A stretch of DNA of 9,978 nt from Bacteroidota bacterium (GTDB lineage: Bacteria; Bacteroidota; Ignavibacteria; Ignavibacteriales; Ignavibacteriaceae): the NCBI GenBank assembly GCA_021796135.1, contig JAJYOQ010000123.1, positions 1-9,978 on the forward strand, given 5' to 3'. Below the pieces are notes generated by a model. It searched no databases and was not told the DNA's origin. It saw nothing but the letters and a program-made list of their open reading frames with translations. Shown piece after piece: positions 1 to 9,978 of this stretch; position 1 is the first letter of the stretch, and every line of letters starts with the position of its first letter. The position numbers and the translations under genes were made by a program.

Positions 1-977
1 TGGAAAATAAAAAAATTAAGATAGCAGGAATAGCATTAGTAACACTAATACAAATCTTTTTTATGGTCGGCTGTTCAAGCGATGAGCCGAAAGAAGATAC
101 AGTTAAAAATAAAGAACAAACCGAAAACACCGAACATAGTAAAGCGATAAAACTAACAGACAATGAACTAAAAGAATTTGGCATTGAAATAAAAGAAGCC
201 GCAGCGGGAGTGATTACCAATCACATTGATTTGACTGGTGAAATAAAAGCCGAACCCTCACGCCTCTCGCACATTATCCCCCGTTTCCCCGGAATAGTGA
301 AGGAGGTTTATAAAACGGTAGGGGAAAAAGTCAAGCAGGGTGAGGTTCTAGCAGTAATAGAAAGCAACGAAAGTCTCACCCCTTATGAAGTTAAATCTTT
401 AATGGATGGGATAGTTATCGAATTACATATGGCAAAAGGTGATTTGGTAGGCGGTGATCAGGTAGCTATTACAGTTGCTAACCTTGATAAAATTTGGGTG
501 ATACTCACTATTTATCAACGAGATATTAACAAAATAAAAATCGGGCAGCGTGCTTTGGTTTCTCTTAGTGCTGATGAAAAGGGAGAAGAAGGAACAATCT
601 CTTATGTAAGCCCGGTTGTTGATGAGGCAAGCAGGACAGCATCGGCAAGAGTAATATTGAATAACACTTCGAGAAAATGGCGCCCCGGGATGTTTGTATC
701 GGCAAAAGTAACTGTGAGCGAAAAGGAGTCGCCGCTTGTTATAGAAAAATCTGCTCTTCAAACTCTTGAAGACCTACCTACCGGACAGGCAGGCAATACT
801 GTAGTGTTTGTTAAAGATGGAGAAAGATTTAAGCCGCAGCAAGTTGTAATTGGAAAAGAGAACGATGAAAATGTAGAAGTTGTCTCCGGAATTAAACAAG
901 GACAACAGTATGTGTCTAAAGGTTCATTCACATTGAAAGCTGAAATTCTGAAAGAATCTTTCGGCGGCGAGGAGTGA
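1..977 (+). CDS. RND efflux periplasmic adaptor lipoprotein (CusB/CzcB family), start codon one base upstream of window
   Basis: This is the membrane-fusion subunit that would link the inner-membrane pump encoded next to an outer-membrane channel. The frame is open from base 3, and the first two bases (TG) need only one missing base to form a start codon, so the full protein is probably 325 aa. The N-terminus is then a lysine-rich n-region, a hydrophobic stretch and the lipobox MVGC, with the lipidated Cys at residue 25 (codon 72-74). The internal ATG at 63 would cut the signal peptide away and is rejected. After a charged linker come a barrel-sandwich/lipoyl-like domain (around residues 85-155, with PRFPGIVKEV and SLMDGIVIEL), a beta-barrel (around 155-240, with WRPGMFVSAKV) and a membrane-proximal domain. 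No His-rich or Met-rich N-terminal metal site is visible. Residues 258-265 look like an insertion (see the repeat at 773-793). The pump gene follows after 3 nt, so the two are cotranscribed. The family call is strong; the metal is not determined. Confidence 0.93.
   Translation, partial: ENKKIKIAGIALVTLIQIFFMVGCSSDEPKEDTVKNKEQTENTEHSKAIKLTDNELKEFGIEIKEAAAGVITNHIDLTGEIKAEPSRLSHIIPRFPGIVKEVYKTVGEKVKQGEVLAVIESNESLTPYEVKSLMDGIVIELHMAKGDLVGGDQVAITVANLDKIWVILTIYQRDINKIKIGQRALVSLSADEKGEEGTISYVSPVVDEASRTASARVILNNTSRKWRPGMFVSAKVTVSEKESPLVIEKSALQTLEDLPTGQAGNTVVFVKDGERFKPQQVVIGKENDENVEVVSGIKQGQQYVSKGSFTLKAEILKESFGGEE
773..793 (+). repeat. In-frame palindromic mini-insert inside the adaptor gene (encodes LPTGQAG)
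   Basis: A 21-nt imperfect inverted repeat centred on G783: each position pairs with its mirror across 773-793 except two A/C mismatches (776 with 790, and 780 with 786). It is GC-rich against an AT-rich gene. It encodes LPTGQAG, residues 259-265, within ALQTLED...NTVVFVKDG. In CusB/CzcB relatives, as I recall them, ALQT and VVFV are joined by only a few residues, so about 8 codons look inserted without breaking the frame. Similar coding palindromes occur in other genomes (for example the Rickettsia palindromic elements), but I cannot assign this one to a named family. Confidence 0.6.
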
Positions 978-980
978 ACA

Positions 981-3900
981 ATGAATAGAATAATAGATTT
1001 TGTTTTACGCAACCGACTTTTAATTGTAGTGTTTGCAATAATAGTAATGGCTGCAGGATATATGAGTTACAGACAGCTTCCAATTGATGCTTTCCCGGAT
1101 GTTTCACCGGTGCTTGTTCAGGTCTTTACACAAACTGAGGGATTGGCGCCGGAAGAAATTGAAAAATATGTAACCTATCCGGTGGAAACCGCAATGAACG
1201 GTTTACCGAATCTGCAGCTTATCAGGTCAGTTTCAAATTTCGGTCTTTCGGTTGTCAATATTTATTTCGAAGACGGAACGGATATTTATTTTGCAAGACA
1301 GCTTGTTAATGAACGGCTGACGGAAGCGCGGGAACAAATTCCCGAAGGTTTCGGCAAGCCTGCAATGGGCCCGATTTCTACCGGTATGGGTTTAATTCTC
1401 TTTTATTATCTGGAAGATGAAACCGGTAAATACAGCTTGGAGGAATTAAGAACAATTCAGGATTGGTTAGTTAAATATCAATTACAAACAGTTTCGGGTG
1501 TTACTGAAATACTTGGAATAGGCGGCTGGGAAAAACAATACCAGGTTGTAGTAAATCCCAACTCATTGCTACGTTATGATATAACAGTTAACGACGTTGT
1601 TGATAAAATCAAAGCGAATAATTTAAATGTCGGCGCTCAGTTCTTAGAAAAAAATGCGGAAGAATTTATTGTACGTTCAACAGGACTTACTTCCAACATT
1701 GAAGACCTTAACAATATTGTGTTAAAATCTGAAGATGGAGTTCCGATTTATTTAAACCAGGTAGCAAATGTAAAAACAGGCGGAGCTATCAGGCGGGGTG
1801 TTCAAACAAGCAACGGTGTGGGCGAAGTTGTTGCCGGGATGGTTGTTAAATTGTTTGGAACAAACTCTTCAACTGTAATTAAGAATGTTGAAGATAAGTT
1901 AGCTGAAATAAACAAGTCTCTTCCCAAAGGTATAAAAATAATTCCATACTATCAGCAAAAAACTCTTGTTGAATCAGCCGTAAAAACTGTAACAGATGCA
2001 CTGCTTGAAGGAATCGTTTTGGTGGCTATAATATTAATGGTATTCCTTGGTGCAATAAGACCAAGCGTGGTAGTGGCAATTGCAATCCCTTTCTCGGTTC
2101 TTTTTGCAATGATCGGTATGAAGTTTTTCGGAATTTCTGCAAACCTAATGTCGTTTGGCGGCTTGGCAATAGCAATCGGCATGATGGTGGACGGAGCCGT
2201 TGTTATTGTTGAAAATACAGACCGGCTTTTACGCACAAGCAACCCAGACGAATCCAAAATTCATATAATAGCAAAAGCTAGTAAAGAAGTTATAAGACCA
2301 ATTACTTTTGCAGTGATGATAATTATAATTGTTTTCCTTCCGTTATTCACACTTCAGGGAGTTGAAGGAAAAACGTTCAGACCGCTTGCTTATACAATTG
2401 CACTGGCAATGTTTGGTTCTTTATTGTTTGGAGTTTTTGTGGCTCCGGTTCTCTCTTCATTTTTTATGAAAAAACACACCCCTAAAGGACAAGCAAAGAA
2501 AAATTCTACTCACGAAGAAAACAAGAATGAACTTTCATCTTCAGAAGAAGAACAAATCTGGATACTGAAATTATTAATAAAAATTTATAAGCCGGTTGTA
2601 ACTTTCTTTGTCAAGACAAGAATGGCTGCAATTGCACTTGCAGTAATTTTAATAATTATTGGTGTTCTCATCTTTCCGCAATTAGGTTCTGAATTTACGC
2701 CCACTCTGCAGGAAGGAACATTAGTATTAAGAATGGCGATGGCTCCTTCAATCTCTCTTACTGAAAGTACACGGCTTACTCTTATTGCAGAAAGAAGATT
2801 AATGAAGATCCCGGAAGTTACCGGCGTAGTAACAAGAATAGGCAGAGGCGAAGTCGGCGCTCATACTGACCCGGTTAACAGTGCTGAAATGTATGTATTG
2901 CTAAAACCAAGAGATCAATGGAGAAACCACGCAACACAGCAGCAGCTTGAAGAAAATATAAGGCGTGATTTTGGAGAGATACCGGGAGTATTTACAAACT
3001 TTACCCAGCCAATACAAATGACGGTTGATGAATTATTGGAAGGCGTTAGAGCTGAACTAGCAATTAAACTTTTCGGAACCGACCTTGAAACATTAAAAAA
3101 CAAAGCAGATGAAGTTGCCGCTCAAATCAAAAAGGTTAATGGTTCCGCCGATGTGCAGGTTGACCAGGTATCGGGCGCTCCGCAATTAAGTATTTTAATC
3201 AATCGTCACGAAATTGCACGCTACGGAATAAACGTTAATGATGTACAACAAGCAATCAGAGCTGCAATTGGCGGTGAAACTGCGGGGCAAATATTTGAAG
3301 ATGTAAAACGGTTCGATATTTATGTCCGCTTCGAAGAGGAGTTCAGAAAAGATATGAATTCTATCGGGGCTTTATTAATTAAATCTCCATCCGGTGTCGA
3401 AGTTCCGTTAAGTCAGTTATCGGAAATTAAAGAAGTGGTTGGACCGCGCCAAATAACACGTGAAAAGAACCAGAGATTTATTACTGTCCAGTCCAATGTA
3501 GTGGGGCGCGACATAGGTTCATTTGTAAAGGAAGGGCAAAATGTTATTGACAGCAAAGTAAAACTTCCACCGGGATATTTTGTAACGTGGGGTGGTCAAT
3601 TTAAACTGCAGCAGGAAGCTAATGCAAGATTAGCAGTAGTAGTTCCAATTACACTGTTAATAATTTTCATTATGCTTTTCTCAAGTTTTAATTCTCTAAA
3701 GAATTCTTTGCTGATATTCTTAAACATACCTTTGGCTTTAGTTGGCGGAATTGTTGCTTTGTGGATTTCCGGGCAAAATCTTTCCGTGCCGGCTTCAGTA
3801 GGGTTTATTGCTTTATTCGGTATTGCACTGCTTAACGGTATTGTATTGGTAACATATTTAAACCAACTGCGGATGGAAGGGTTGAGTGTTGATGATGCCT

Positions 3901-4127
3901 CAATCCAGGGAGCGTGCTTAAGAGTAAGGCCGGTTTTAATGACCGCTCTTGCCGCAGCCTTAGGAATGATACCGCTTTTGTTCGCAACTGGAATTGGAAG
4001 CGAAGTACAAAGACCTTTGGCAACTGTTGTAATTGGCGGATTGGTTACTTCAACCACGTTAACATTATTAGTTATACCGGCTTTATACAAGTGGTTTGCA
4101 ATTAAGGTAGCGGAAGGTGAAATGTAA
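981..4127 (+). CDS. cusA/czcA: Heavy-metal efflux RND transporter, CusA/CzcA family
   Basis: This is the proton-driven inner-membrane pump of a tripartite metal exporter. At 1048 aa it has normal family length. It starts at the ATG 3 nt after the adaptor stop, with GAGGAG at 969-974 as ribosome binding site. It has TM1 near residues 10-30, a first periplasmic porter half (RQLPIDAFPDVSPVLVQV), a TM2-TM6 block from about residue 340, a cytoplasmic Lys/Glu-rich linker around 496-530, a second porter half and a final TM block ending at the C-terminus. The TM4 proton-relay motif reads GMMVDGAVVIVEN, with D404 and E411. The first Asp of the CzcA-type DFG motif is Ala398, as in CusA. PIQMTVDELLEGVRA and WGGQFKLQQEA in the second half read more like CzcA. 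The methionine pattern of CusA is only partly present (RYGI instead of RYGM), so Cu/Ag versus Zn/Co/Cd/Ni stays open. The family call is very secure. Confidence 0.96.
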   Translation: MNRIIDFVLRNRLLIVVFAIIVMAAGYMSYRQLPIDAFPDVSPVLVQVFTQTEGLAPEEIEKYVTYPVETAMNGLPNLQLIRSVSNFGLSVVNIYFEDGTDIYFARQLVNERLTEAREQIPEGFGKPAMGPISTGMGLILFYYLEDETGKYSLEELRTIQDWLVKYQLQTVSGVTEILGIGGWEKQYQVVVNPNSLLRYDITVNDVVDKIKANNLNVGAQFLEKNAEEFIVRSTGLTSNIEDLNNIVLKSEDGVPIYLNQVANVKTGGAIRRGVQTSNGVGEVVAGMVVKLFGTNSSTVIKNVEDKLAEINKSLPKGIKIIPYYQQKTLVESAVKTVTDALLEGIVLVAIILMVFLGAIRPSVVVAIAIPFSVLFAMIGMKFFGISANLMSFGGLAIAIGMMVDGAVVIVENTDRLLRTSNPDESKIHIIAKASKEVIRPITFAVMIIIIVFLPLFTLQGVEGKTFRPLAYTIALAMFGSLLFGVFVAPVLSSFFMKKHTPKGQAKKNSTHEENKNELSSSEEEQIWILKLLIKIYKPVVTFFVKTRMAAIALAVILIIIGVLIFPQLGSEFTPTLQEGTLVLRMAMAPSISLTESTRLTLIAERRLMKIPEVTGVVTRIGRGEVGAHTDPVNSAEMYVLLKPRDQWRNHATQQQLEENIRRDFGEIPGVFTNFTQPIQMTVDELLEGVRAELAIKLFGTDLETLKNKADEVAAQIKKVNGSADVQVDQVSGAPQLSILINRHEIARYGINVNDVQQAIRAAIGGETAGQIFEDVKRFDIYVRFEEEFRKDMNSIGALLIKSPSGVEVPLSQLSEIKEVVGPRQITREKNQRFITVQSNVVGRDIGSFVKEGQNVIDSKVKLPPGYFVTWGGQFKLQQEANARLAVVVPITLLIIFIMLFSSFNSLKNSLLIFLNIPLALVGGIVALWISGQNLSVPASVGFIALFGIALLNGIVLVTYLNQLRMEGLSVDDASIQGACLRVRPVLMTALAAALGMIPLLFATGIGSEVQRPLATVVIGGLVTSTTLTLLVIPALYKWFAIKVAEGEM

Positions 4128-4132
4128 TGGAA

Positions 4133-4171
4133 GATGGGTGTTGGAATAGTGAAATGATGGAGTGTTGGAAT
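4133..4171 (+). repeat. Two-copy direct repeat, GATGGgTGTTGGAAT type
   Basis: GATGGGTGTTGGAAT at 4133-4147 recurs as GATGGAGTGTTGGAAT at 4156-4171, differing by one inserted base, about 23 bp apart and immediately after the pump stop codon. It is noncoding. It may be a remnant of a simple intergenic repeat or slippage product. No function is evident. Confidence 0.55.
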
Positions 4172-4214
4172 GAAGGATTCCGTCATAATAAAATCTTAGT
4201 AATCCGTCTCAGTG

Positions 4215-4319
4215 TTTCTCTGTGCAATTCTCTGTGGCTTTCTGTGTAACTAATGCTTTTAAGAATTACACAGAGTTCTATCGAGAATCCGCCGCGGCGG
4301 AACAGAGTTCACAGAGAAA
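4215..4319 (+). repeat. Long imperfect inverted repeat of CTCTGTG/CACAGAG units
   Basis: The main content of the 265-bp gene-free spacer between the pump and the P-II gene. TTTCTCTGTG at 4215-4224 is the exact complement of CACAGAGAAA at 4310-4319. Further in, TCTGTGTAA at 4241-4249 is the exact complement of TTACACAGA at 4266-4274, leaving a 16-nt loop. Between these, CTCTGT at 4230-4235 can pair with ACAGAG at 4302-4307. The right arm is longer than the left because an extra GC-rich palindrome lies inside it. As RNA this would fold into a long hairpin and could end or attenuate pump transcription, or protect the 3' end, but it has no T-tract typical of an intrinsic terminator. The unit resembles intergenic CACAGAG repeats I have seen in many environmental genomes; that is recollection, not a search. 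Confidence 0.7.
4270..4310 (+). repeat. GC-rich palindrome bracketed by a 9-bp direct repeat, nested in the CACAGAG repeat
   Basis: TCCGCCGCGGCGGA at 4288-4301 is a perfect 14-bp palindrome, far more GC-rich than its surroundings. The 23-nt block holding it (4279-4301) is flanked by ACAGAGTTC at 4270-4278 and again at 4302-4310. Taking out the block plus one copy of the 9-mer makes the right arm of the larger hairpin nearly match the left arm in length. This is what insertion of a tiny palindromic element with target duplication would leave. The host repeat is itself rich in ACAGAG, so the duplication could instead be pre-existing. Confidence 0.55.
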
Positions 4320-4380
4320 TTTCTCCGAGCAGAAAAATGGAATAAGAAATAGAGAAAATCAATAATTGTTAAAAACTAAT

Positions 4381-4385
4381 AAGGA
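4381..4385 (+). promoter_or_regulatory. Ribosome binding site that decides the P-II start
   Basis: AAGGA lies 7 nt before the ATG at 4393. The frame could also open at a TTG at 4366, adding nine residues (MLKTNKECY) absent from P-II proteins, but that TTG has no comparable site in front. The ATG gives MKEIKAII, the usual P-II N-terminus. Confidence 0.7.
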
Positions 4386-4392
4386 ATGCTAT

Positions 4393-4734
4393 ATGAAAGA
4401 AATAAAGGCCATAATAAGAGATTTCAAACTTGATAGTGTAATCACTGAGCTTAAGAAGATTGAAGGACTACCTGGGATTACTATTTCAGAGATTAAGGGG
4501 TTCGGTAAATCCAAAGCAAAAGGTGCAAGAGATAAAATTAGTGAGGGGTTACACGAGTTTGTGCCAAGAATTAAACTTGAACTGGTAGTGCATAATAACA
4601 TTGTGAATGATGTTGTAGATGTAATTCAACGAACAGCGCACACCGGAAATCCGGGTGACGGAAAAATATTTGTAACCAATTTAGAGAATGTTGTAAAGAT
4701 AAGAACAAATGAAAGAGGAGAAGAAGCAATATGA
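4393..4734 (+). CDS. P-II family signalling protein, metal-pump-associated type (PII-NG-like)
   Basis: A small trimeric P-II (GlnB/GlnK fold) protein, 113 aa against 112 for E. coli GlnB, to which it aligns without gaps apart from one extra residue near the start. P-II proteins bind ATP/ADP and often 2-oxoglutarate and control partners through the T-loop. The B-loop is intact (TGNPGDGKIFV, residues 84-94) and so is the C-loop region (KIRTNERGEEAI). The T-loop (about 37-58, FGKSKAKGARDKISEGLHEF) is lysine-rich and has Gly52 where GlnB has the uridylylated Tyr51. Ser40 replaces Gln39, which in GlnB/GlnK helps bind Mg-ATP-2-oxoglutarate. Classical nitrogen signalling is therefore unlikely. A P-II subgroup linked to CusA/CzcA pumps has been described as PII-NG, and the upstream pump fits it. 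The stop overlaps the next start as ATGA, so it is also coupled to the CcmE-like gene. The P-II fold is certain; the ligand and partner are unknown. Confidence 0.9.
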   Translation: MKEIKAIIRDFKLDSVITELKKIEGLPGITISEIKGFGKSKAKGARDKISEGLHEFVPRIKLELVVHNNIVNDVVDVIQRTAHTGNPGDGKIFVTNLENVVKIRTNERGEEAI

Positions 4735-5078
4735 AAATATCAAAACTAATATTGCCGGCAATCTTTATCGTGGTTAGTGTAATAATGTATTTTACTTATT
4801 TCGCACCAACAAAAGAACTAGGCTCGTTCAGTAAATTCAGCCCGGGCAGTGAGATTAACCAGCAAATAAATGTTGCTGTTGTTAAAACAAAAGGATTTGA
4901 AAGAGATGCAAGCGGCGGCATTACTTCCTTTTATGCAAGAGATAAAGACAATGTCGAATTAATAATTACTCTTCACGAACCGGCACCGGCAGAGATTGCG
5001 AATGCAGAAGTTGTTGAAGTCAATGGGCATATGCACGGGAATAGTATTACTGCTTCGAAGGTTACGATTATCAAATGA
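4731..5078 (+). CDS. ccmE: CcmE-like OB-fold membrane protein lacking the heme-attachment motif
   Basis: CcmE is the periplasmic heme chaperone of system I cytochrome c maturation: it holds heme covalently and passes it to CcmF. This 115-aa protein has the expected layout: a short cytoplasmic start, one TM anchor (about residues 5-24), then an OB-fold domain with INVAVVKTKGFERDASGG and AEVVEVNGHMHGNSITASKV, matching the CcmE ending VVVxGxxxGxxFxAxxV. Family members continue with the heme-binding His or Cys and a Tyr (HxxxY or CxxxY, as in CPSKY). Here the protein stops at KVTIIK, exactly before that point. None of the three downstream frames before 5121 shows such a motif. The start is the ATG overlapping the P-II stop, with AGAGGAG at 4714-4720. 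ccmF follows 42 nt later, which strongly supports the assignment. It is either a variant that hands over heme noncovalently or a shortened copy. Confidence 0.75.
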   Translation: MKISKLILPAIFIVVSVIMYFTYFAPTKELGSFSKFSPGSEINQQINVAVVKTKGFERDASGGITSFYARDKDNVELIITLHEPAPAEIANAEVVEVNGHMHGNSITASKVTIIK

Positions 5079-5120
5079 TAAAGGTTTAAGAAAAATTATA
5101 AAATTATCGGAGAAATATTT

Positions 5121-7490
5121 ATGATAGGTAATATTCTTTTGGTTGCGGCGTTACTGTTTGCCCTATATTCATTTATAATGTATTATAGATCATACAAAGG
5201 TTCTAATACGATTGGTAAAGCCAGGATTGGTTATCATTTAACTACTATAACTGTAGTTATTGCATCAGCATTATTGCTTCTTTTGATATTAAAACATCAA
5301 TATCAATATAAATATATATTTGAATACAGCAGCAGCGATCTTTCAACCGGACTGTTAATTTCTTCATTCTTTGGCGGACAGGAAGGAAGTTTTTTACTAT
5401 GGCTTTTATTTACTGTGCTGATTGGGTTGGTGGTTATTAATCAAACTTCAAAAGAAAAAAATTTTGAAGCACCGGTAATGATGCCCTTCCTTGTTGCGGT
5501 TGTGTTTCTGCTGCTTATGGTAAATCCATTATTAAAAAGTCCGTTTAACTATTTATGGGCAGACCCAAATTATATTGACCCAAAATTTATTAACCAGAAT
5601 ATCCTGGGATATTCATTTATGAATAATTTTATATTTCAGGATAATAGCGGTAAATCTTTTGTTAAGATAAGCGAAGAGCTAATTAATGCTATTAAAGCAA
5701 ACGGACTATCCACCGATAATCTAATCGTTCAGGGGAAAGGACTGAATCCATTATTACAAAACTTTTGGATGCAGATTCATCCACCGGTATTGTTCTTAGG
5801 ATTTGCGCTTGCCACAACTCAATTCTCTTTTGCCATTGCTGCATTAATTAAAAATGAATACAAGACCTGGTTAAAATTCAATTTGCCCTGGACATTGGTT
5901 ACGGCATTATTTTTAGGGCTTGGAATAATGATTGGCGGTTACTGGGCTTACGGAGTTTTAGGATGGGGCGGTTATTGGGCTTGGGACCCGGTCGAAAATT
6001 CAAGTCTTATACCATGGATATTTTCCGTGGCTTTGCTGCATACGCTTATTGTTCAAAAACAATCCCAAACTGAACACAAGCTGGGAAGTTTGACAAGGAC
6101 TAATTTAATATTATCGGTTTTCACTTTTGCCTTGGTTGTTTACAGCACCTTCCTTACCCGCAGCGGAGTTCTTTCCGAAGCTTCAGTTCATTCATTTAGC
6201 GACCCGGGTTCTTTTGTTTATTCTGTTCTTATTATTTTTCTTATAGGTTTTGTTCTATCTGTATTTGTAGGAATTTATAAAAGAAGAAAAACTTTAAATA
6301 ACAACAAAGCTCTTTCTCAGAATATTTTGTCGCGGGAGCTTGGACTTTTTTATGGCTCAATGCTTTTGATTGGTTCTGCCGTTGCAATTCTTTTCGGCAC
6401 TTCCGCTCCAATATTCGGCAGTTCTGTGGATTTAAGTTTCTATAACCAGATAAACTTACTCATTGCTGTTTTTATGGTTCCCTTAATTGGATTTACTTTA
6501 TACTCATATTGGCAAAATACTCCTATAGATGTTTTTATTAAAAGAACAGCAATATCAATAGCGGCTTCAATTATAATTACTTTTCTCCTCTTATACTTAA
6601 CGGGTATTTGGGATTTTCTTTACGGTCTGCTTTTATTTGCATCAGCTTTTGCAATAATTACCAACCTTGAACTTATCCTAAAATTCAATAAGAAATTTAT
6701 TTTTATGGGCGGTCATATTGCGCATATTGGTTTCGGAATATTCTTGGTCGGAGCGCTTTTCAGCGGTGTGCTCTCAAAATCCCAAACTTTAGATCTCCCG
6801 AAAAATAATAGTCAATCTGCATTCGGTAAAAGGTTAACTTATCTTGGAAATGAACCGATAGACAACGGCAAGAAATATGCTTTCACAGTAAAAATAGATG
6901 ATGGAAATAAATCATTCCTTTCTAAACCGGTAATGTATATATCGGAATATAACAACAGTTTAATGAGAGAGCCGGATATTTTAATAGGTGCCGCTCAAGA
7001 CCTTTATATTTCACCGCTGTCATTTCAAGAAGGGAATGATGCGGGGACTAAAGAAATTGATTTAAAGAAAGGAGTGCCTTACAAGATAGGCAATTCAGAA
7101 ATACTCTTTGAAAAATTTGACCTTCCAAAAGATGCGATGGAAAAGATGACGAACAAAGAACCATTCGATATTCGTGCAGCGATGAAAATTACTTCTAACG
7201 GGATTTCTAAAAATTTCAGCATTATTGTCAATGATTCACTGCAAAATAGTTTTCAAATAGAAGAGGAAGGGTTAACTTTTACCGTTTCACATTTCGACGT
7301 TAAAGGAATGATAGAGTTAAACGTAATGGATTCAAATAATACTAAAAAGGAAGAAGCTAAGGCAGATATACTTTCTATTGAATTCAGGGAAAAACCTCTT
7401 ATAAACCTCGTATGGTCCGGAGTGCTTCTGATGTCAATCGGATTTTTAATAATGTTAATAAGAAGGTTTCGTGAGATAAGAATTGAGTAA
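5121..7490 (+). CDS. ccmF: CcmF, cytochrome c heme lyase component (system I)
   Basis: A polytopic inner-membrane protein of the heme-handling family that, with CcmH-type partners, attaches heme to apocytochrome c CXXCH sites in the periplasm. Start: ATG at 5121 with GGAGA at 5109-5113. The tryptophan-rich heme-handling signature WGGYWAWDPVENSSLIPWI spans residues 282-300. The four expected heme-ligand or heme-access histidines are visible: H220 (QIHPPVLFLGF), H307 (LLHTLIVQ), H357 (SVHSFSDPGSF) and H535 (HIAHIGFG; H532 lies nearby). TFLTRSGVLSEASVHSF is also diagnostic. A large soluble periplasmic domain (about 558-757, with MREPDIL and DLYISPL) precedes the last TM (about 762-780). At 789 aa it is longer than E. 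coli CcmF (about 650) but resembles long forms in other phyla. No other ccm gene follows; ccmA-D and ccmG/H must lie elsewhere or be absent. Confidence 0.95.
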   Translation: MIGNILLVAALLFALYSFIMYYRSYKGSNTIGKARIGYHLTTITVVIASALLLLLILKHQYQYKYIFEYSSSDLSTGLLISSFFGGQEGSFLLWLLFTVLIGLVVINQTSKEKNFEAPVMMPFLVAVVFLLLMVNPLLKSPFNYLWADPNYIDPKFINQNILGYSFMNNFIFQDNSGKSFVKISEELINAIKANGLSTDNLIVQGKGLNPLLQNFWMQIHPPVLFLGFALATTQFSFAIAALIKNEYKTWLKFNLPWTLVTALFLGLGIMIGGYWAYGVLGWGGYWAWDPVENSSLIPWIFSVALLHTLIVQKQSQTEHKLGSLTRTNLILSVFTFALVVYSTFLTRSGVLSEASVHSFSDPGSFVYSVLIIFLIGFVLSVFVGIYKRRKTLNNNKALSQNILSRELGLFYGSMLLIGSAVAILFGTSAPIFGSSVDLSFYNQINLLIAVFMVPLIGFTLYSYWQNTPIDVFIKRTAISIAASIIITFLLLYLTGIWDFLYGLLLFASAFAIITNLELILKFNKKFIFMGGHIAHIGFGIFLVGALFSGVLSKSQTLDLPKNNSQSAFGKRLTYLGNEPIDNGKKYAFTVKIDDGNKSFLSKPVMYISEYNNSLMREPDILIGAAQDLYISPLSFQEGNDAGTKEIDLKKGVPYKIGNSEILFEKFDLPKDAMEKMTNKEPFDIRAAMKITSNGISKNFSIIVNDSLQNSFQIEEEGLTFTVSHFDVKGMIELNVMDSNNTKKEEAKADILSIEFREKPLINLVWSGVLLMSIGFLIMLIRRFREIRIE

Positions 7491-7567
7491 AAGAAGTCTC
7501 TTGAAATATGAAAGCTCCAGTTAAAATTGAAGATAATTAAGAAAAATTTCATCAGGAATATCGTAAT

Positions 7568-7594
7568 CGTAATACTTTTATCTCTTGTGCGTCT
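7568..7594 (+). promoter_or_regulatory. Candidate ECF-sigma promoter before the sigma factor gene (autoregulation)
   Basis: TAAT at 7570-7573 near -35 and TGCGTCT at 7588-7594 near -10, with 16 nt between AAT and CGTCT. The element matches the one at 9118-9144 at 14 of 22 upstream positions plus all of CGTCT. CGTC at -10 and AAC-like at -35 with a 16-17 nt spacer is the usual ECF layout; here the -35 is AAT. The distance from CGTCT to the sigma ATG is 18 nt, giving a very short leader in which AGGA (7602-7605) is the ribosome binding site. The rest of 7491-7612 shows no gene. Confidence 0.5.
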
Positions 7595-7612
7595 TTATAT
7601 TAGGAATATTTA

Positions 7613-8191
7613 ATGAAAAGTAGAGCCAAAGATTTAACAGATGAAGAACTACATCAAATTGTAGAAAAAGCGAAAGCTAAAGATAATAGAGCGCTTGGAA
7701 GATTATGTGAACACTTTTATTCAAAAATCTACCGGTTTATTTACTATCGTGTGAATTCTATTGAAGATGCTGAGGATTTAACAAGCGAAGTATGTCTAAG
7801 AGTTGTCAAATCTTTGCCGGAACAAAACGGACTGTTCTACGCATGGATTTTTCGTATAGCTTCGAATCTGATTACAGATTACTATCGCCGGCGTGCAGTT
7901 CGTTCAAATGTAGCAATAAACGAAGATTTAGTTGAAGAAATGGCTGATGAGAAAAGAACAACTACAGAGCTGCTTGAACAGCAGGAATTACGGCAGGCAA
8001 TAAAGCATCTCACCGAAGAACAGCAGCAGGTTATTGTGTTGAAATTTATTGAAGGTTATGAAACTGATGAGATAGCAGACCTGGTTGGAAAGTCTGCAGG
8101 AGCAGTTCGTGCAATTCAGTTTAGAGCTTTAACTGCTTTGCGAAACATATTTGCTTCAGATATGTCCATCAGAAAGGATAAGAAGGTTTAA
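7613..8191 (+). CDS. ECF-type RNA polymerase sigma factor
   Basis: A 192-aa group IV (extracytoplasmic function) sigma factor with only regions 2 and 4. Region 2 spans about residues 28-95: LCEHFYSKIYRFIYYRV, then IEDAEDLTSEV (the 2.2 core-binding helix) and WIFRIASNLITDYYRRR (2.3-2.4, -10 recognition). After a linker rich in Glu and Thr comes region 4 (about 128-180): LTEEQQQVIVLKFIEGYETDEIADLVGKSAGAVRAIQFRALTALR, a helix-turn-helix for -35 recognition, quoted here by its conserved blocks LTEEQQQVIVLKF, EIADLVGKS and RALTALR. There is no C-terminal extension. The start ATG has AGGA 7 nt ahead. The stop TAA at 8189-8191 touches the ATG of the next gene with no gap, the usual arrangement for a sigma and its anti-sigma. 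A promoter-like element in front matches the one before the LTxxQ gene, suggesting autoregulation. The family is certain; the exact ECF group is not resolved. Confidence 0.95.
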   Translation: MKSRAKDLTDEELHQIVEKAKAKDNRALGRLCEHFYSKIYRFIYYRVNSIEDAEDLTSEVCLRVVKSLPEQNGLFYAWIFRIASNLITDYYRRRAVRSNVAINEDLVEEMADEKRTTTELLEQQELRQAIKHLTEEQQQVIVLKFIEGYETDEIADLVGKSAGAVRAIQFRALTALRNIFASDMSIRKDKKV

Positions 8192-9094
8192 ATGGAACAA
8201 AACGTTGAATTGTTTTTGGATATTTGCATTAGCGAAATGCAGAAGGGGAAAAGTATTGATGAATGTATAGCGAACTATCCTCAATATGCTAACCAGTTAA
8301 AGCCCCTTCTACAGCTTGCTGAACAAATTGAGGATTTGCCTATGCCAATGCCTTCATCCGAAGCGATATCAGCTACTTTAATTAACATAGGCAAGCAGAT
8401 GGAACAGGATACTGCAGCCATAGAAATACCAGGAGCACTTGTCCCGAAGGAATCCGTTCGGATGAAAAAATCGAAAACATTCTCTTTCCTCAATATATTT
8501 CGGAAACCAAAGCTGGTGTGGGCGTTAAGCACTTTCCTATTTTTTGCCGTTATTTTTAGTGCCACAATGGTTTCAGCAAACAGTGTTCCCGGCGATATTC
8601 TCTATCCTCTAAAGTTAGTAACTGAGAAAGTAAAATTTCTGCTCACATTTGATTCTTATGGAAAAGCAGAATTACGATTGAATTTTTCCGATGACCGTTT
8701 GAGTGAGTTAGTAACTGTTCTTCAAAAATCCAATAAGTTAGATACAACGCTCTTAAAGGAAATGCTTGATGAAGCAAAATTAGCTTTGGAAGAAAATGAA
8801 ATACCAGTTGATAAAGCGTCTATCTTTACAGCAAAGCTAAATCACATCAATGCTTATCAAAAAGCTGTGTTAGAAAATATTCGCCCTCGCGTTCAAACAT
8901 CAAACCGTCAAATTATTGATGAAGCAATCAATATGTGCAATATGCGCTCACGCTGGATGAGAAGAATGATGGATGAGGAGCATCAGGAACAGTTTTATGA
9001 ACCAGATTCAACTCACCAAACCGATACTCAACACAGAAAGAAGTCTAAGCCAAAAAGAATGCAATGGGGACCAGGCTGTGATTGGATGGAGTGA
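8192..9094 (+). CDS. DUF5667-type membrane protein, putative anti-sigma factor
   Basis: A 300-aa single-pass protein, probably the anti-sigma partner of the sigma factor encoded immediately upstream (0 nt gap). The cytoplasmic N-terminal part (1-106) starts with a helical motif, LDICISEMQKGKSIDECI, then NYPQYANQLKPLLQLAEQI, a pattern seen in anti-sigma-like proteins that precede DUF5667 domains. TM: about residues 107-129 (LVWALSTFLFFAVIFSATMV). The outside part begins with SVPGDILYPLKLVTEKVKF (131-149), the hallmark of DUF5667, followed by a helical region with LRLNFSDDRLSEL. The C-terminal third is unusual: C249, M248, M251, M256, M259, M260 and H264, then H275, H281 and C296 near the end, a set that could bind a soft metal ion in the periplasm. 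No zinc-binding ZAS HxxxCxxC motif is present. Anti-sigma function is inferred from position and topology; DUF5667 membership is recognised by eye. Confidence 0.78.
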   Translation: MEQNVELFLDICISEMQKGKSIDECIANYPQYANQLKPLLQLAEQIEDLPMPMPSSEAISATLINIGKQMEQDTAAIEIPGALVPKESVRMKKSKTFSFLNIFRKPKLVWALSTFLFFAVIFSATMVSANSVPGDILYPLKLVTEKVKFLLTFDSYGKAELRLNFSDDRLSELVTVLQKSNKLDTTLLKEMLDEAKLALEENEIPVDKASIFTAKLNHINAYQKAVLENIRPRVQTSNRQIIDEAINMCNMRSRWMRRMMDEEHQEQFYEPDSTHQTDTQHRKKSKPKRMQWGPGCDWME

Positions 9095-9117
9095 AATTAT
9101 AAAAAGAAAATATGTCG

Positions 9118-9144
9118 CATAACAATTTTGACTGCTATGCGTCT
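9118..9144 (+). promoter_or_regulatory. Candidate ECF-sigma promoter before the LTxxQ periplasmic protein gene
   Basis: TAAC at 9120-9123 near -35 and TATGCGTCT at 9136-9144 near -10, with 16 nt between AAC and CGTCT. Spacing and sequence match the element before the sigma gene (TTTT, CT, TGCGTCT in register), the best evidence that the sigma controls both. CGCATA at 9116-9121 is the exact inverse of TATGCG at 9136-9141, so the element also forms a dyad across the core promoter. The leader to the ATG at 9212 would be about 60 nt. Confidence 0.55.
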
Positions 9145-9152
9145 GGTAGTAT

Positions 9153-9189
9153 TGAATTCTGAAATGTTTTTGTGAATTCGCAAATGTTT
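9153..9189 (+). repeat. Two 17-bp direct repeats at 20-bp period in the leader of the LTxxQ gene
   Basis: TGAATTCTGAAATGTTT at 9153-9169 and TGAATTCGCAAATGTTT at 9173-9189 agree at 15 of 17 positions. The 20-bp offset puts both on nearly the same helix face, just downstream of the candidate promoter. They could be a tandem operator for a second regulator, an mRNA leader element, or a local duplication. Confidence 0.6.
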
Positions 9190-9211
9190 AACAAAACAAG
9201 GAGAAAAAATT

Positions 9212-9736
9212 ATGTTTACAAAACAAAGAAAACTCGTTCTAATTGTTTCGCTGATTGGAACAATAATACTGTTGTCATCACTCACAAATACAGTTAAAGC
9301 ACAGGGTTGGAATTATAGCAACTGTATGAACGGGATGAGCCGTGATTATGGATGGCAGTGGAATGCCAGCGTGCCGCAGAAGTATCAATTGTCTGCCGAC
9401 CAAATGACAAGCATCAGGGACATTCGCTCTCAATATGATGACCAAATCTTCCCTTTGCAGAGAGAGCTTCGTGCACTCAGAATTGAAGCAAGAGGTTATG
9501 AAAGCCGCACCGACGCCGAGATAGAAAAAATTAAATCTTACAGAAAAGATATTAACAAACTTTCAGATAAGATTGAAGACTTACGCTTGGATACAAGAGC
9601 AGAAATCAACAAGGTTCTTACCAAGGAACAGCTTGCTTACTTCGGCAATAACTTTGGCGGAGATATGGAAAATTGTATGATGGACTATTCGGGAAGCGGT
9701 ATGGATGGATGTCCAATGATGTCACACAGTAATTAG
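9212..9736 (+). CDS. Periplasmic LTxxQ protein of the Spy/CpxP/ZraP/Metal_resist type with Met/Cys-rich ends
   Basis: A 174-aa secreted protein. The signal peptide runs from MFTKQRK through a hydrophobic core to VKA, with likely cleavage before Gln31. The mature part is mostly helical with two LTxxQ-like motifs, LSADQ (60-64) and LTKEQ (136-140), spaced as in Spy/CpxP proteins. Between them lies a charged helical hairpin region (SIRDIRSQYDDQIFPLQREL, then repeated Lys/Asp/Glu). These proteins act as periplasmic chaperones or, in CnrX and ZraP, as metal sensors or buffers. Both ends carry possible metal ligands: C38, M39 and M42 at the front, and M152, C155, M156, M157, M164, C167, M169, M170 and H172 at the back. 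The start has AAGGAG at 9198-9203, 8 nt ahead. It sits behind an ECF-like promoter that matches the one before the sigma gene, so it is the probable regulon output or sensor of that system. The fold call is good; the metal role is inferred. Confidence 0.82.
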   Translation: MFTKQRKLVLIVSLIGTIILLSSLTNTVKAQGWNYSNCMNGMSRDYGWQWNASVPQKYQLSADQMTSIRDIRSQYDDQIFPLQRELRALRIEARGYESRTDAEIEKIKSYRKDINKLSDKIEDLRLDTRAEINKVLTKEQLAYFGNNFGGDMENCMMDYSGSGMDGCPMMSHSN

Positions 9737-9754
9737 AAATTGACAAATTAATGT

Positions 9755-9781
9755 GAGAGCGGATGATGATTATCCGCTCTT
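9755..9781 (+). terminator. Hairpin terminator after the LTxxQ gene
   Basis: AGAGCGGAT at 9756-9764 pairs perfectly with ATCCGCTCT at 9772-9780 around a 7-nt loop, with a possible G-U pair added outside. It lies 19 nt after the stop codon. Only a weak T-rich tail (TTAACATCTT) follows, so termination may be partial and some transcripts could read into the next gene. Confidence 0.65.
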
Positions 9782-9842
9782 AACATCTTAGATAAAATTT
9801 TGACACAAAAAAATTATGATTTCAAAAAGAAGAGAAACAAAA

Positions 9843-9978
9843 ATGGGAAATTTCATTACTCAGATAATCCATTATCGTCTTTTGATTTTCGCAGGAATAC
9901 TTTTTATGTATTCAAATAATTTAAATGCCCAGTGTTCGTGGCGGGGGATGGGAAGTCACGATGATATGAACTCTCACA
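9843..9978 (+). CDS. Secreted Cys/Met/His-containing protein, 3' end outside the window
   Basis: An open frame from ATG at 9843 to the window end (45 codons). AAGAAGAGA upstream is a modest ribosome binding site. The visible part is a signal peptide: a hydrophobic core (LLIFAGILFMYS) ending NLNA, with likely cleavage before Gln30. The mature start QCSWRGMGSHDDMNSH holds C31, M36, H39, M42 and H45. It resembles the mature start of the preceding LTxxQ protein in composition, not in alignable sequence. It may be another component of the same periplasmic response. The family cannot be told from what is visible. No ECF-like element matching the other two was seen in 9737-9842. Confidence 0.65.
   Translation, partial: MGNFITQIIHYRLLIFAGILFMYSNNLNAQCSWRGMGSHDDMNSH

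Follow-up and report, generated by a model that had tools for sequence, protein, structure and literature searches.

The window studied here, positions 1 to 9,978 of contig JAJYOQ010000123.1 in the Bacteroidota assembly GCA_021796135.1 (Ignavibacteria; Ignavibacteriaceae), ends in an extracytoplasmic function (ECF) sigma factor gene, a gene for a single-pass membrane protein with a DUF5667 domain, a gene for a Spy/ZraP-like secreted protein that we call the LTxxQ protein after its two motifs, and the start of a gene for a further secreted protein. From sequence comparisons we read this module as a BldN–RsbN-like ECF sigma/anti-sigma switch that regulates itself and was recruited to metal-efflux islands, a reading to which we assign a probability of roughly 0.7. 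The conserved module is real and, in the open-licence literature searched, undescribed: DUF5667 was not found in these papers, and nothing on the module stood among the papers listed for ECF systems of Ignavibacteria with copper or for RsbN with Bacteroidetes and heavy metal. The original prediction, made from the letters of the window, had likewise not known it as a described system, and the searches agree.

Conservation of the module in metal-efflux islands

The TAA stop of the sigma gene directly abuts the ATG of the DUF5667 gene, in the same frame; together with Pfam scores above the gathering thresholds and one hydrophobic stretch in the DUF5667 protein, this bears out the predicted layout of an ECF sigma gene touching a single-pass DUF5667 gene, with a Spy/CpxP-like protein after it. 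A search for the same order across related genomes, as had been proposed, gave 17 loci holding both genes: the window, three loci in genome G001, seven from a scan of named genomes, one each in G270, G621, G433 and G453, and two in G457; a contig present under two names counts once. The DUF5667 gene lies directly 3' of sigma in 17/17 loci (in L099 the sigma gene is cut by the contig end), and the LTxxQ gene comes next in 14 of the 16 testable ones, the contig of L101 ending too early to judge; the exceptions are L103, with a small opposite-strand open reading frame in between, and L015, whose nearest LTxxQ gene lies about 3.5 kb off. The order goes beyond chance, for it is found again in four families of the class, counting that of the window, with DUF5667 identities of 42-87%. 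Named sources of the homologues include Ignavibacteria, Melioribacteraceae, Stygiobacter and other Bacteroidota assemblies, with one more distant homologue from Acidobacteriota.

Genes for resistance-nodulation-division (RND) pumps, P-type ATPases, cation diffusion facilitators (CDF) or NRAMP transporters lie nearby in 15 of the 17 loci, which for most loci was judged by BLAST against representatives, themselves scanned with Pfam or NCBIfam. The heavy-metal ATPase model matches 3 to 16 times in each of eight carrier genomes, yet a heavy-metal ATPase gene, whole or cut by a contig end, stands directly upstream of sigma in 7/17 loci. Cu/Ag as the first choice of metal was set aside: two ATPases that adjoin modules (L014 and L056) score 536.4 and 522.4 bits with the cadmium-type model, above its cut-off of 313.5, and 395.0 and 390.3 bits with the copper-type model, just below its cut-off of 397, and the fusion protein in the window is nearest to the divalent-metal IhpB family, below that family's cut-off. 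Copper may still be among the metals sensed. The module is accessory: a single-sequence search finds a DUF5667 homologue in 7 of 116 relatives and a profile search in 10 of 391 genomes of the class, each figure including one weak match.

Promoter-like sites before the sigma and LTxxQ genes

A CRTAAY-N16/17-CGTC site lies 32-45 nt upstream of 16/16 sigma genes, always with CRTAAY, and 74-102 nt upstream of 16/16 LTxxQ genes, 14 of them with CRTAAY and two (L032, L056) one base off. The site was first spotted upstream of 12 sigma and 11 LTxxQ genes, and the pattern of this tally was widened (spacer 16 or 17, looser -35) to fit the tallied loci; the independent part of the test is the presence of CATAAC and GCGTC at both places in loci fetched later. 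Among the five loci fetched after the motif had been noticed, L099 matched the first pattern at once, and those of G457, G433 and G453 failed it, having a spacer of 17 rather than 16 and, before sigma, a G after TAAC. The widened pattern matches at 13 further places in 206,112 bp of loci that overlap in part, and one of these places is an LTxxQ site met a second time through such an overlap. With a weight matrix derived from 18 distinct sites of the loci first examined, no other site above 8 bits was found in the loci scanned, beyond those upstream of sigma (one truncated) and LTxxQ genes, and none of 20 block shuffles attained the score of the weakest known site.

The exact pattern TAAYAM-N12-TRCGTCT was also run over 16 genomes and 116 relatives. 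Seven carriers among the 16 genomes have 22 matches, 20 of them at modules, and the nine others have 2; six strong carriers among the relatives have 20 matches, 18 at modules, and the other 110 genomes have 52 scattered matches in 40 genomes, about 0.5 each by hand count. The signal of the site resides in the positions of its matches, not in their number. The published BldN promoter motif (PMC2375139) is CGTAAC-N16-CGTTGA, which the module site resembles in its -35 and spacer: exact CGTAAC occurs at 2/16 sigma genes, CATAAC at most, the spacer is 16 nt, or 17 in one family, and the -10 agrees as CGT only. In loci L100, L101, L102 and L103 the sigma ATG follows only 5 nt after CGTC, because of which the sigma mRNA of this family may be leaderless.

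A BldN-like sigma and a predicted RsbN-like partner

The sigma matches Sigma70_r2 (52.2 bits) and r4 (47.3 bits) above their gathering scores. Among PDB sequences it is most similar to 6dxo_A (E 1.3e-23), which is BldN in its complex with RsbN; the second-best match has E 1.5e-15, and CnrH is distant in the same comparison (E 2.1e-4). TIGR02952, the BldN family, is top-scoring among 112 NCBIfam families, and in G270 the sigma that adjoins DUF5667 is the strongest of 14 BldN-family matches. In the model of sigma and DUF5667 protein folded as one chain, region 2 alone superposes on BldN at 0.9 Å over 75 residues, and the sigma superposes on CnrY-bound CnrH at 2.0 Å over 150 residues and on RsiW-bound SigW at 3.0 Å over 155; its compact form, like that of anti-sigma-bound CnrH and SigW, may reflect a bias of the predictor.

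In an 11.85-Mb Nonomuraea record that is filed as a plasmid, a BldN-like gene (6dxo_A, E 4.3e-57) precedes one for a single-pass protein of 211 aa. With 39.4 bits this protein exceeds the DUF5667 cut-off of 27, and we infer, from position and architecture, that it is the RsbN orthologue. Because the window sigma is nearest to BldN, and the Nonomuraea BldN-like gene also precedes a DUF5667 gene, the window pair looks like BldN–RsbN, that is, like the RsbN kind of anti-sigma already described and not a new kind. The original prediction had set the module apart from CnrYXH by its different anti-sigma family; a family other than that of CnrY is retained here (no CnrY chain was among the PDB sequence matches of the window DUF5667 protein and its profile), but the Nonomuraea pair means that it is not unprecedented. 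According to PMC7406223 and PMC8103513, no class III anti-sigma other than RsbN had a crystal structure in 2020, and RsbN is membrane-anchored and blocks access of the sigma to the -35 box (the names RsbN and BldN are swapped in the text of PMC7406223). A sigma–DUF5667 pair also occurs on a Chloroflexota plasmid (L085 4238-5801), where the DUF5667 protein is without cysteines and no LTxxQ gene is annotated in the 10.3 kb seen.

The DUF5667 protein as candidate sensor

PF18915 (DUF5667) matches residues 131-234 with 47.3 bits against a cut-off of 27. The protein has one hydrophobic stretch, residues 109-132 (best windows 109-127 and 114-132), with seven K/R in residues 88-107 against three in 130-149, and because of this excess the N-terminus is predicted to be cytoplasmic. 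When sigma and DUF5667 protein were folded as one chain, from an alignment of 7 joined and 67 single-protein rows, the model had a mean predicted local distance difference test score (pLDDT) of 73.9 and helices at 162-210, 215-220, 223-240 and 249-269 (DUF5667 residue = model residue minus 193); the N-terminal DUF5667 helices are presumed to bind sigma. No RsbN chain stood among the Foldseek or VIA matches listed for this model, which is no evidence either way.

Cysteines were counted in 71 of 74 DUF5667 homologues, those with 255 aa or more; the other three are shorter fragments. A Cys 21-75 residues from the C-terminus, within a Met/Arg/Trp stretch, is found in 68/71; a terminal G-x(1-2)-CD pattern, typically WGPGCDWM, in 66/71; and a Cys within the first 20 residues, on the predicted inner side, in 70/71. 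The DUF5667 proteins from Chloroflexota and Nonomuraea, the two seen outside metal islands, have no cysteine. Because the periplasmic Cys are near-invariant in the clade and the latter two proteins lack Cys, the DUF5667 protein appears the likeliest metal or thiol sensor of the module. That the anti-sigma is itself a periplasmic metal sensor, in which the two near-invariant Cys with Met/Trp would form a soft-metal site evolved on an RsbN-type anti-sigma, is a tentative proposal that we place somewhat below even odds.

The LTxxQ protein and the genes that follow it

The LTxxQ protein has an N-terminal hydrophobic stretch, the motifs LSADQ and LTKEQ, and predicted helices at 62-97 and 104-135. 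Its profile scores all fall below the cut-offs (DUF4890 25.1 against 29.7; LTXXQ, PF07813, 17.4 against 24.3; Metal_resist, PF13801, 13.8 against 29.2; ZraP 18.3 against 200), PF13801 or PF07813 is assigned to 25 of the 49 homologues listed, and Foldseek places ZraP chains on top and then CnrX (E 0.05-0.33, prob 0.82-1.0). CnrX binds metal through His in its N-terminal part. No HxxxH was found in that part of the 34 LTxxQ homologues aligned (of 49 found), in which the mature protein has a median of 1 His and a Cys stands among the last 14 residues in 34/34. Because the gene has its own promoter-like site, it looks like a target or feedback protein of the sigma and not a co-transcribed CnrX-type sensor; the site and the missing HxxxH speak against the CnrX-type role that the original prediction had given this protein.

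Seven same-strand runs led by the LTxxQ gene were examined, and three of them reach a P-type ATPase gene. That of L032 comprises LTxxQ, c9, c7, a SHOCT protein, DUF302, a P-type ATPase and a CDF protein with gaps of 16-140 nt, and its co-transcription is putative, as a terminator-like site lies inside it (8 such sites found in the stretch, 5.8 expected); the run of L031 extends to an ATPase with gaps up to 273 nt, and that of L033 reaches two ATPases via other genes with gaps up to 193 nt. The remaining four stop short of a pump, two of them at a contig end. The fourth gene of the window, described earlier as encoding a Cys/Met/His-containing protein, has 45 codons there and matches the N-terminus of a 172-aa relative that holds a single cysteine, so that the description says little. 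Other members of the module seen in L014 are a small SHOCT protein (5417-5671) that begins MWNSGCSWWWGPGYFFGGP and a 173-aa protein (6226-6747) without any Pfam match. In L056 (12016-13856; G270) the module is followed by genes that look, by eye, like DUF302, an ArsR-type regulator and an arsenite methyltransferase.

Proposed mechanism and its meaning

In the resting state the BldN-like sigma would be held by the helices that the DUF5667 membrane protein has in the cytoplasm. Excess periplasmic metal, most likely a thiophilic divalent ion (Zn, Cd, Pb), or thiol stress would act on the DUF5667 domain and its Cys/Met/Trp tail in the periplasm and so free the sigma, which would then transcribe two units from the CRTAAC-N16/17-CGTC promoters. 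One unit would be the autoregulated sigma–DUF5667 operon itself; the other would be led by LTxxQ and in some loci may continue, by way of genes for small membrane proteins, as far as those for a P-type ATPase and a CDF exporter. The LTxxQ hairpin protein would be the output, probably a periplasmic metal-buffering chaperone, and it might act back on the switch in the way that CpxP and ZraP act on their own regulators.

RsbN-type anti-sigmas are known from Streptomyces development; we know of no stimulus for their outer domain, and to our knowledge none has been found before for any DUF5667 domain. If the DUF5667 protein is the sensor, this would be the first such stimulus, and a kind of metal sensing unrelated to that of CnrX. 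An apparent BldN–RsbN pair in the metal islands of another phylum, with a Cys tail and a readable two-promoter regulon, makes the question of the stimulus testable; the promoter-like site can be used to look for sigma targets, and likely on-switch sites can be read from the genome. Ignavibacteria, for which no copper-linked ECF system was found in the open-licence literature searched, gain a concrete candidate for a metal-linked one.

Weighing the evidence

Several observations weigh against the switch as we read it. On the side of the sites, the exact pattern is not enriched by number, a reversed control giving 26 matches in six carriers (0 to 8 per genome); most sites, as CATAAC, are one base off the BldN -35, with agreement in the -10 limited to CGT; part of the site before LTxxQ lies in an inverted repeat; and no such site was seen upstream of the pump genes in the window, nor on contig C55 of G001, which extends further upstream. 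The sigma scores 143.7 bits for TIGR02952, under the curated BldN cut-off of 206.45, and because of this we call it BldN-like and not BldN; the Nonomuraea protein, at 193.2 bits, is also under it. The Nonomuraea DUF5667 protein aligns with the window family over the DUF5667 core only (profile E 2.7e-8), not over the sigma-binding helices, and no RsbN chain was matched in PDB by that protein, by the window DUF5667 protein or by the profile of the latter. The fused model has a predicted template modelling score (pTM) of 0.42. Finally, no metal-transporter gene is seen in L007 and L099, whose contigs measure 5.2 and 6.3 kb.

Were the module a true CnrYXH analogue, the DUF5667 anti-sigma would be locked by the LTxxQ protein, a metal sensor constitutively present in the periplasm, and the sigma would be released once this sensor binds metal. 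The Foldseek ranking does place the protein in the helical-hairpin class, its C-terminal Cys is shared by all aligned homologues, and CnrH likewise transcribes its own regulator operon and an efflux operon (PMC4803752); we nonetheless consider this unlikely, given an LTxxQ gene with its own sigma-type site apart from the regulator operon, aligned homologues without an HxxxH in their N-terminal part, and one sigma–DUF5667 copy (contig C73, L015) without an adjacent LTxxQ gene, the site-bearing LTxxQ gene lying about 3.5 kb off. The LTxxQ protein also looks, by eye, cleaved and secreted, whereas CnrX is a transmembrane protein (PMC7689651). A switch for envelope protein-folding stress, in which DUF5667 would sense misfolded or unlinked envelope components, the Spy-like chaperone would be the output and the metal genes would be mere island neighbours, seems to us rather improbable: the source annotation calls some LTxxQ relatives Spy/CpxP refolding chaperones, and CcmF (cytochrome c maturation) genes adjoin the module in some loci, but metal-transporter genes accompany it in 15/17 loci from four families of the class, P-type ATPase genes stand in the LTxxQ-led run in 3/7 cases, and DUF5667 carries the cysteine tail.

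The shared site could also be an operator or RNA hairpin for another regulator rather than the promoter of the module sigma, since at the LTxxQ genes it overlaps the inverted repeat, which is reported as terminator-like on the minus strand. This is very improbable. CGTC, the most conserved part of the site, has no mirror copy by eye; among 22 distinct sites tested at six offsets, the best-populated offset matches 4.7/8 positions, no better than re-paired arms (p 0.08), which disfavours the dyad, and another offset gave p 0.0 at only 3.6/8 matches; the -35, spacer and part of the -10 resemble the published BldN ones; and the sites keep a distance of 32-45 nt before the sigma start codons.

Layout of the window

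Positions are collected in Table 1. The genes 5' of the module encode a heavy-metal RND pump with its fusion protein, a P-II protein, a small unassigned protein and CcmF by Pfam/NCBIfam, the small protein being CcmE-like by eye only; P-II genes repeatedly adjoin the RND pump genes of these metal islands (cluster c4; in the window 4366-4734). In L025, L031, L032, L033, L034, L035 and L037 a piece resembling the coding start of the P-type ATPase (MKKYQLKNIDC...) lies, by eye, immediately ahead of the sigma promoter, some 50-100 nt from the sigma start, which would fit a recombination between the module and the start of the ATPase gene. L014 carries between two modules a gene (16722-17816) that joins an SCO4226-like nickel-responsive domain, a weak cyclase-like stretch and an AraC-type HTH.

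The nearest genome among those compared, G001, is 100% identical to window positions 633-7675 and 1-786. Its contig C124 equals the window over 633-7675, promoter-like site included, and continues differently after 21 codons of the sigma gene (window 7613-7675; L058 469-870); this could reflect recombination, a sigma copy that is truncated, or a join made in assembly. The junction at which CcmF meets sigma in the window may be a true recombinant or may have been joined within a repeat during assembly; a similar one at 72% identity, on contig C48 of G001, shows that it exists elsewhere. A window-specific artefact was dismissed, the sigma–DUF5667–LTxxQ order being independent of this junction, as were a plasmid and a viral origin, no clade DUF5667 relative having been found in the plasmid collection or in viral contigs. 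An Rfam scan of the window gave no match above gathering scores.

Table 1. Features of the module and of the pump genes in the window
Feature	Position	Strand	Basis
RND membrane-fusion protein, IhpB/CzcB-like (divalent metal)	63..977	+	NF045680 255.5 bits, below cut-off 450; frame open to base 3
CusA/CzcA-family heavy-metal RND pump	981..4127	+	TIGR00914 1152.6 bits, above cut-off
Predicted sigma-dependent promoter of sigma/DUF5667 operon, CGTAAT-N16-CGTC	7568..7593	+	Site before 16/16 sigma genes
ECF sigma factor, BldN-like, 192 aa	7613..8191	+	Pfam sigma r2/r4; TIGR02952; 6dxo_A
Single-pass DUF5667 protein, 300 aa, predicted RsbN-like anti-sigma	8192..9094	+	PF18915; sigma directly 5' in 17/17 loci
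Predicted cytoplasmic N-terminal region, residues 1-108, presumed sigma-binding helices	8192..8515	+	Fused-model helices
Transmembrane helix, residues 109-127	8516..8572	+	Hydropathy
Pfam DUF5667 core, residues 131-234, predicted periplasmic	8582..8893	+	Pfam
Conserved periplasmic Cys249 in MCxMRxRWMRxMM stretch	8936..8938	+	Homologue Cys count
C-terminal tail WGPGCDWME with Cys296	9065..9091	+	Homologue tail pattern
Predicted sigma-dependent promoter of LTxxQ operon, CATAAC-N16-CGTC	9118..9143	+	Site before 16/16 LTxxQ genes
Secreted Spy/CpxP/ZraP-like helical-hairpin protein, 174 aa, C-terminal CPMM	9212..9736	+	Weak Pfam/NCBIfam; homologues; Foldseek
5' part of gene for further secreted/membrane protein (cluster c7), 45 codons in window	9843..9978	+	68% identity over 37 aa to L014:5693-6208

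Comparison with known systems

CpxP and ZraP, of CpxRA and ZraSR, resemble the LTxxQ protein in the two LTxxQ-type motifs and in secretion, and ZraP is the first-ranked structural match; as for CpxP and ZraP, the LTxxQ gene is a predicted target of its regulator, which here is an ECF sigma with a DUF5667 anti-sigma and there a two-component system. CnrYXH of Cupriavidus metallidurans shares with the module an ECF sigma, a membrane anti-sigma and a periplasmic helical-hairpin protein beside metal efflux. Its sigma reads two transcription units (PMC4803752), which in the module are predicted from the sites. The module differs in its anti-sigma family (DUF5667, not CnrY-type), in gene order and in a sigma only distantly like CnrH, and its hairpin protein, unlike CnrX, is predicted to be secreted and encoded in a separate transcription unit, with no HxxxH found.

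BldN–RsbN provides the closest solved relative of the sigma, the sigma–DUF5667 gene pair (in Nonomuraea) and a promoter whose -35 and 16-nt spacer the CRTAAC-N16 sites resemble, and the module follows its predicted layout, with the anti-sigma gene directly 3' of sigma, a single membrane pass and DUF5667 outside the membrane. The setting of BldN–RsbN is developmental (Streptomyces), whereas that of the module is metal-pump islands; the module has CGTCT in place of CGTTGA at the -10 and a spacer of 17 in one family, its DUF5667 protein has a Cys/Trp tail that the Nonomuraea relative lacks, and, unlike BldN–RsbN, it includes an LTxxQ gene. The comparison with CnrYXH is thus apt for how the module may work, and by the tests of membership the module is nearer to a BldN–RsbN pair with an LTxxQ output gene.

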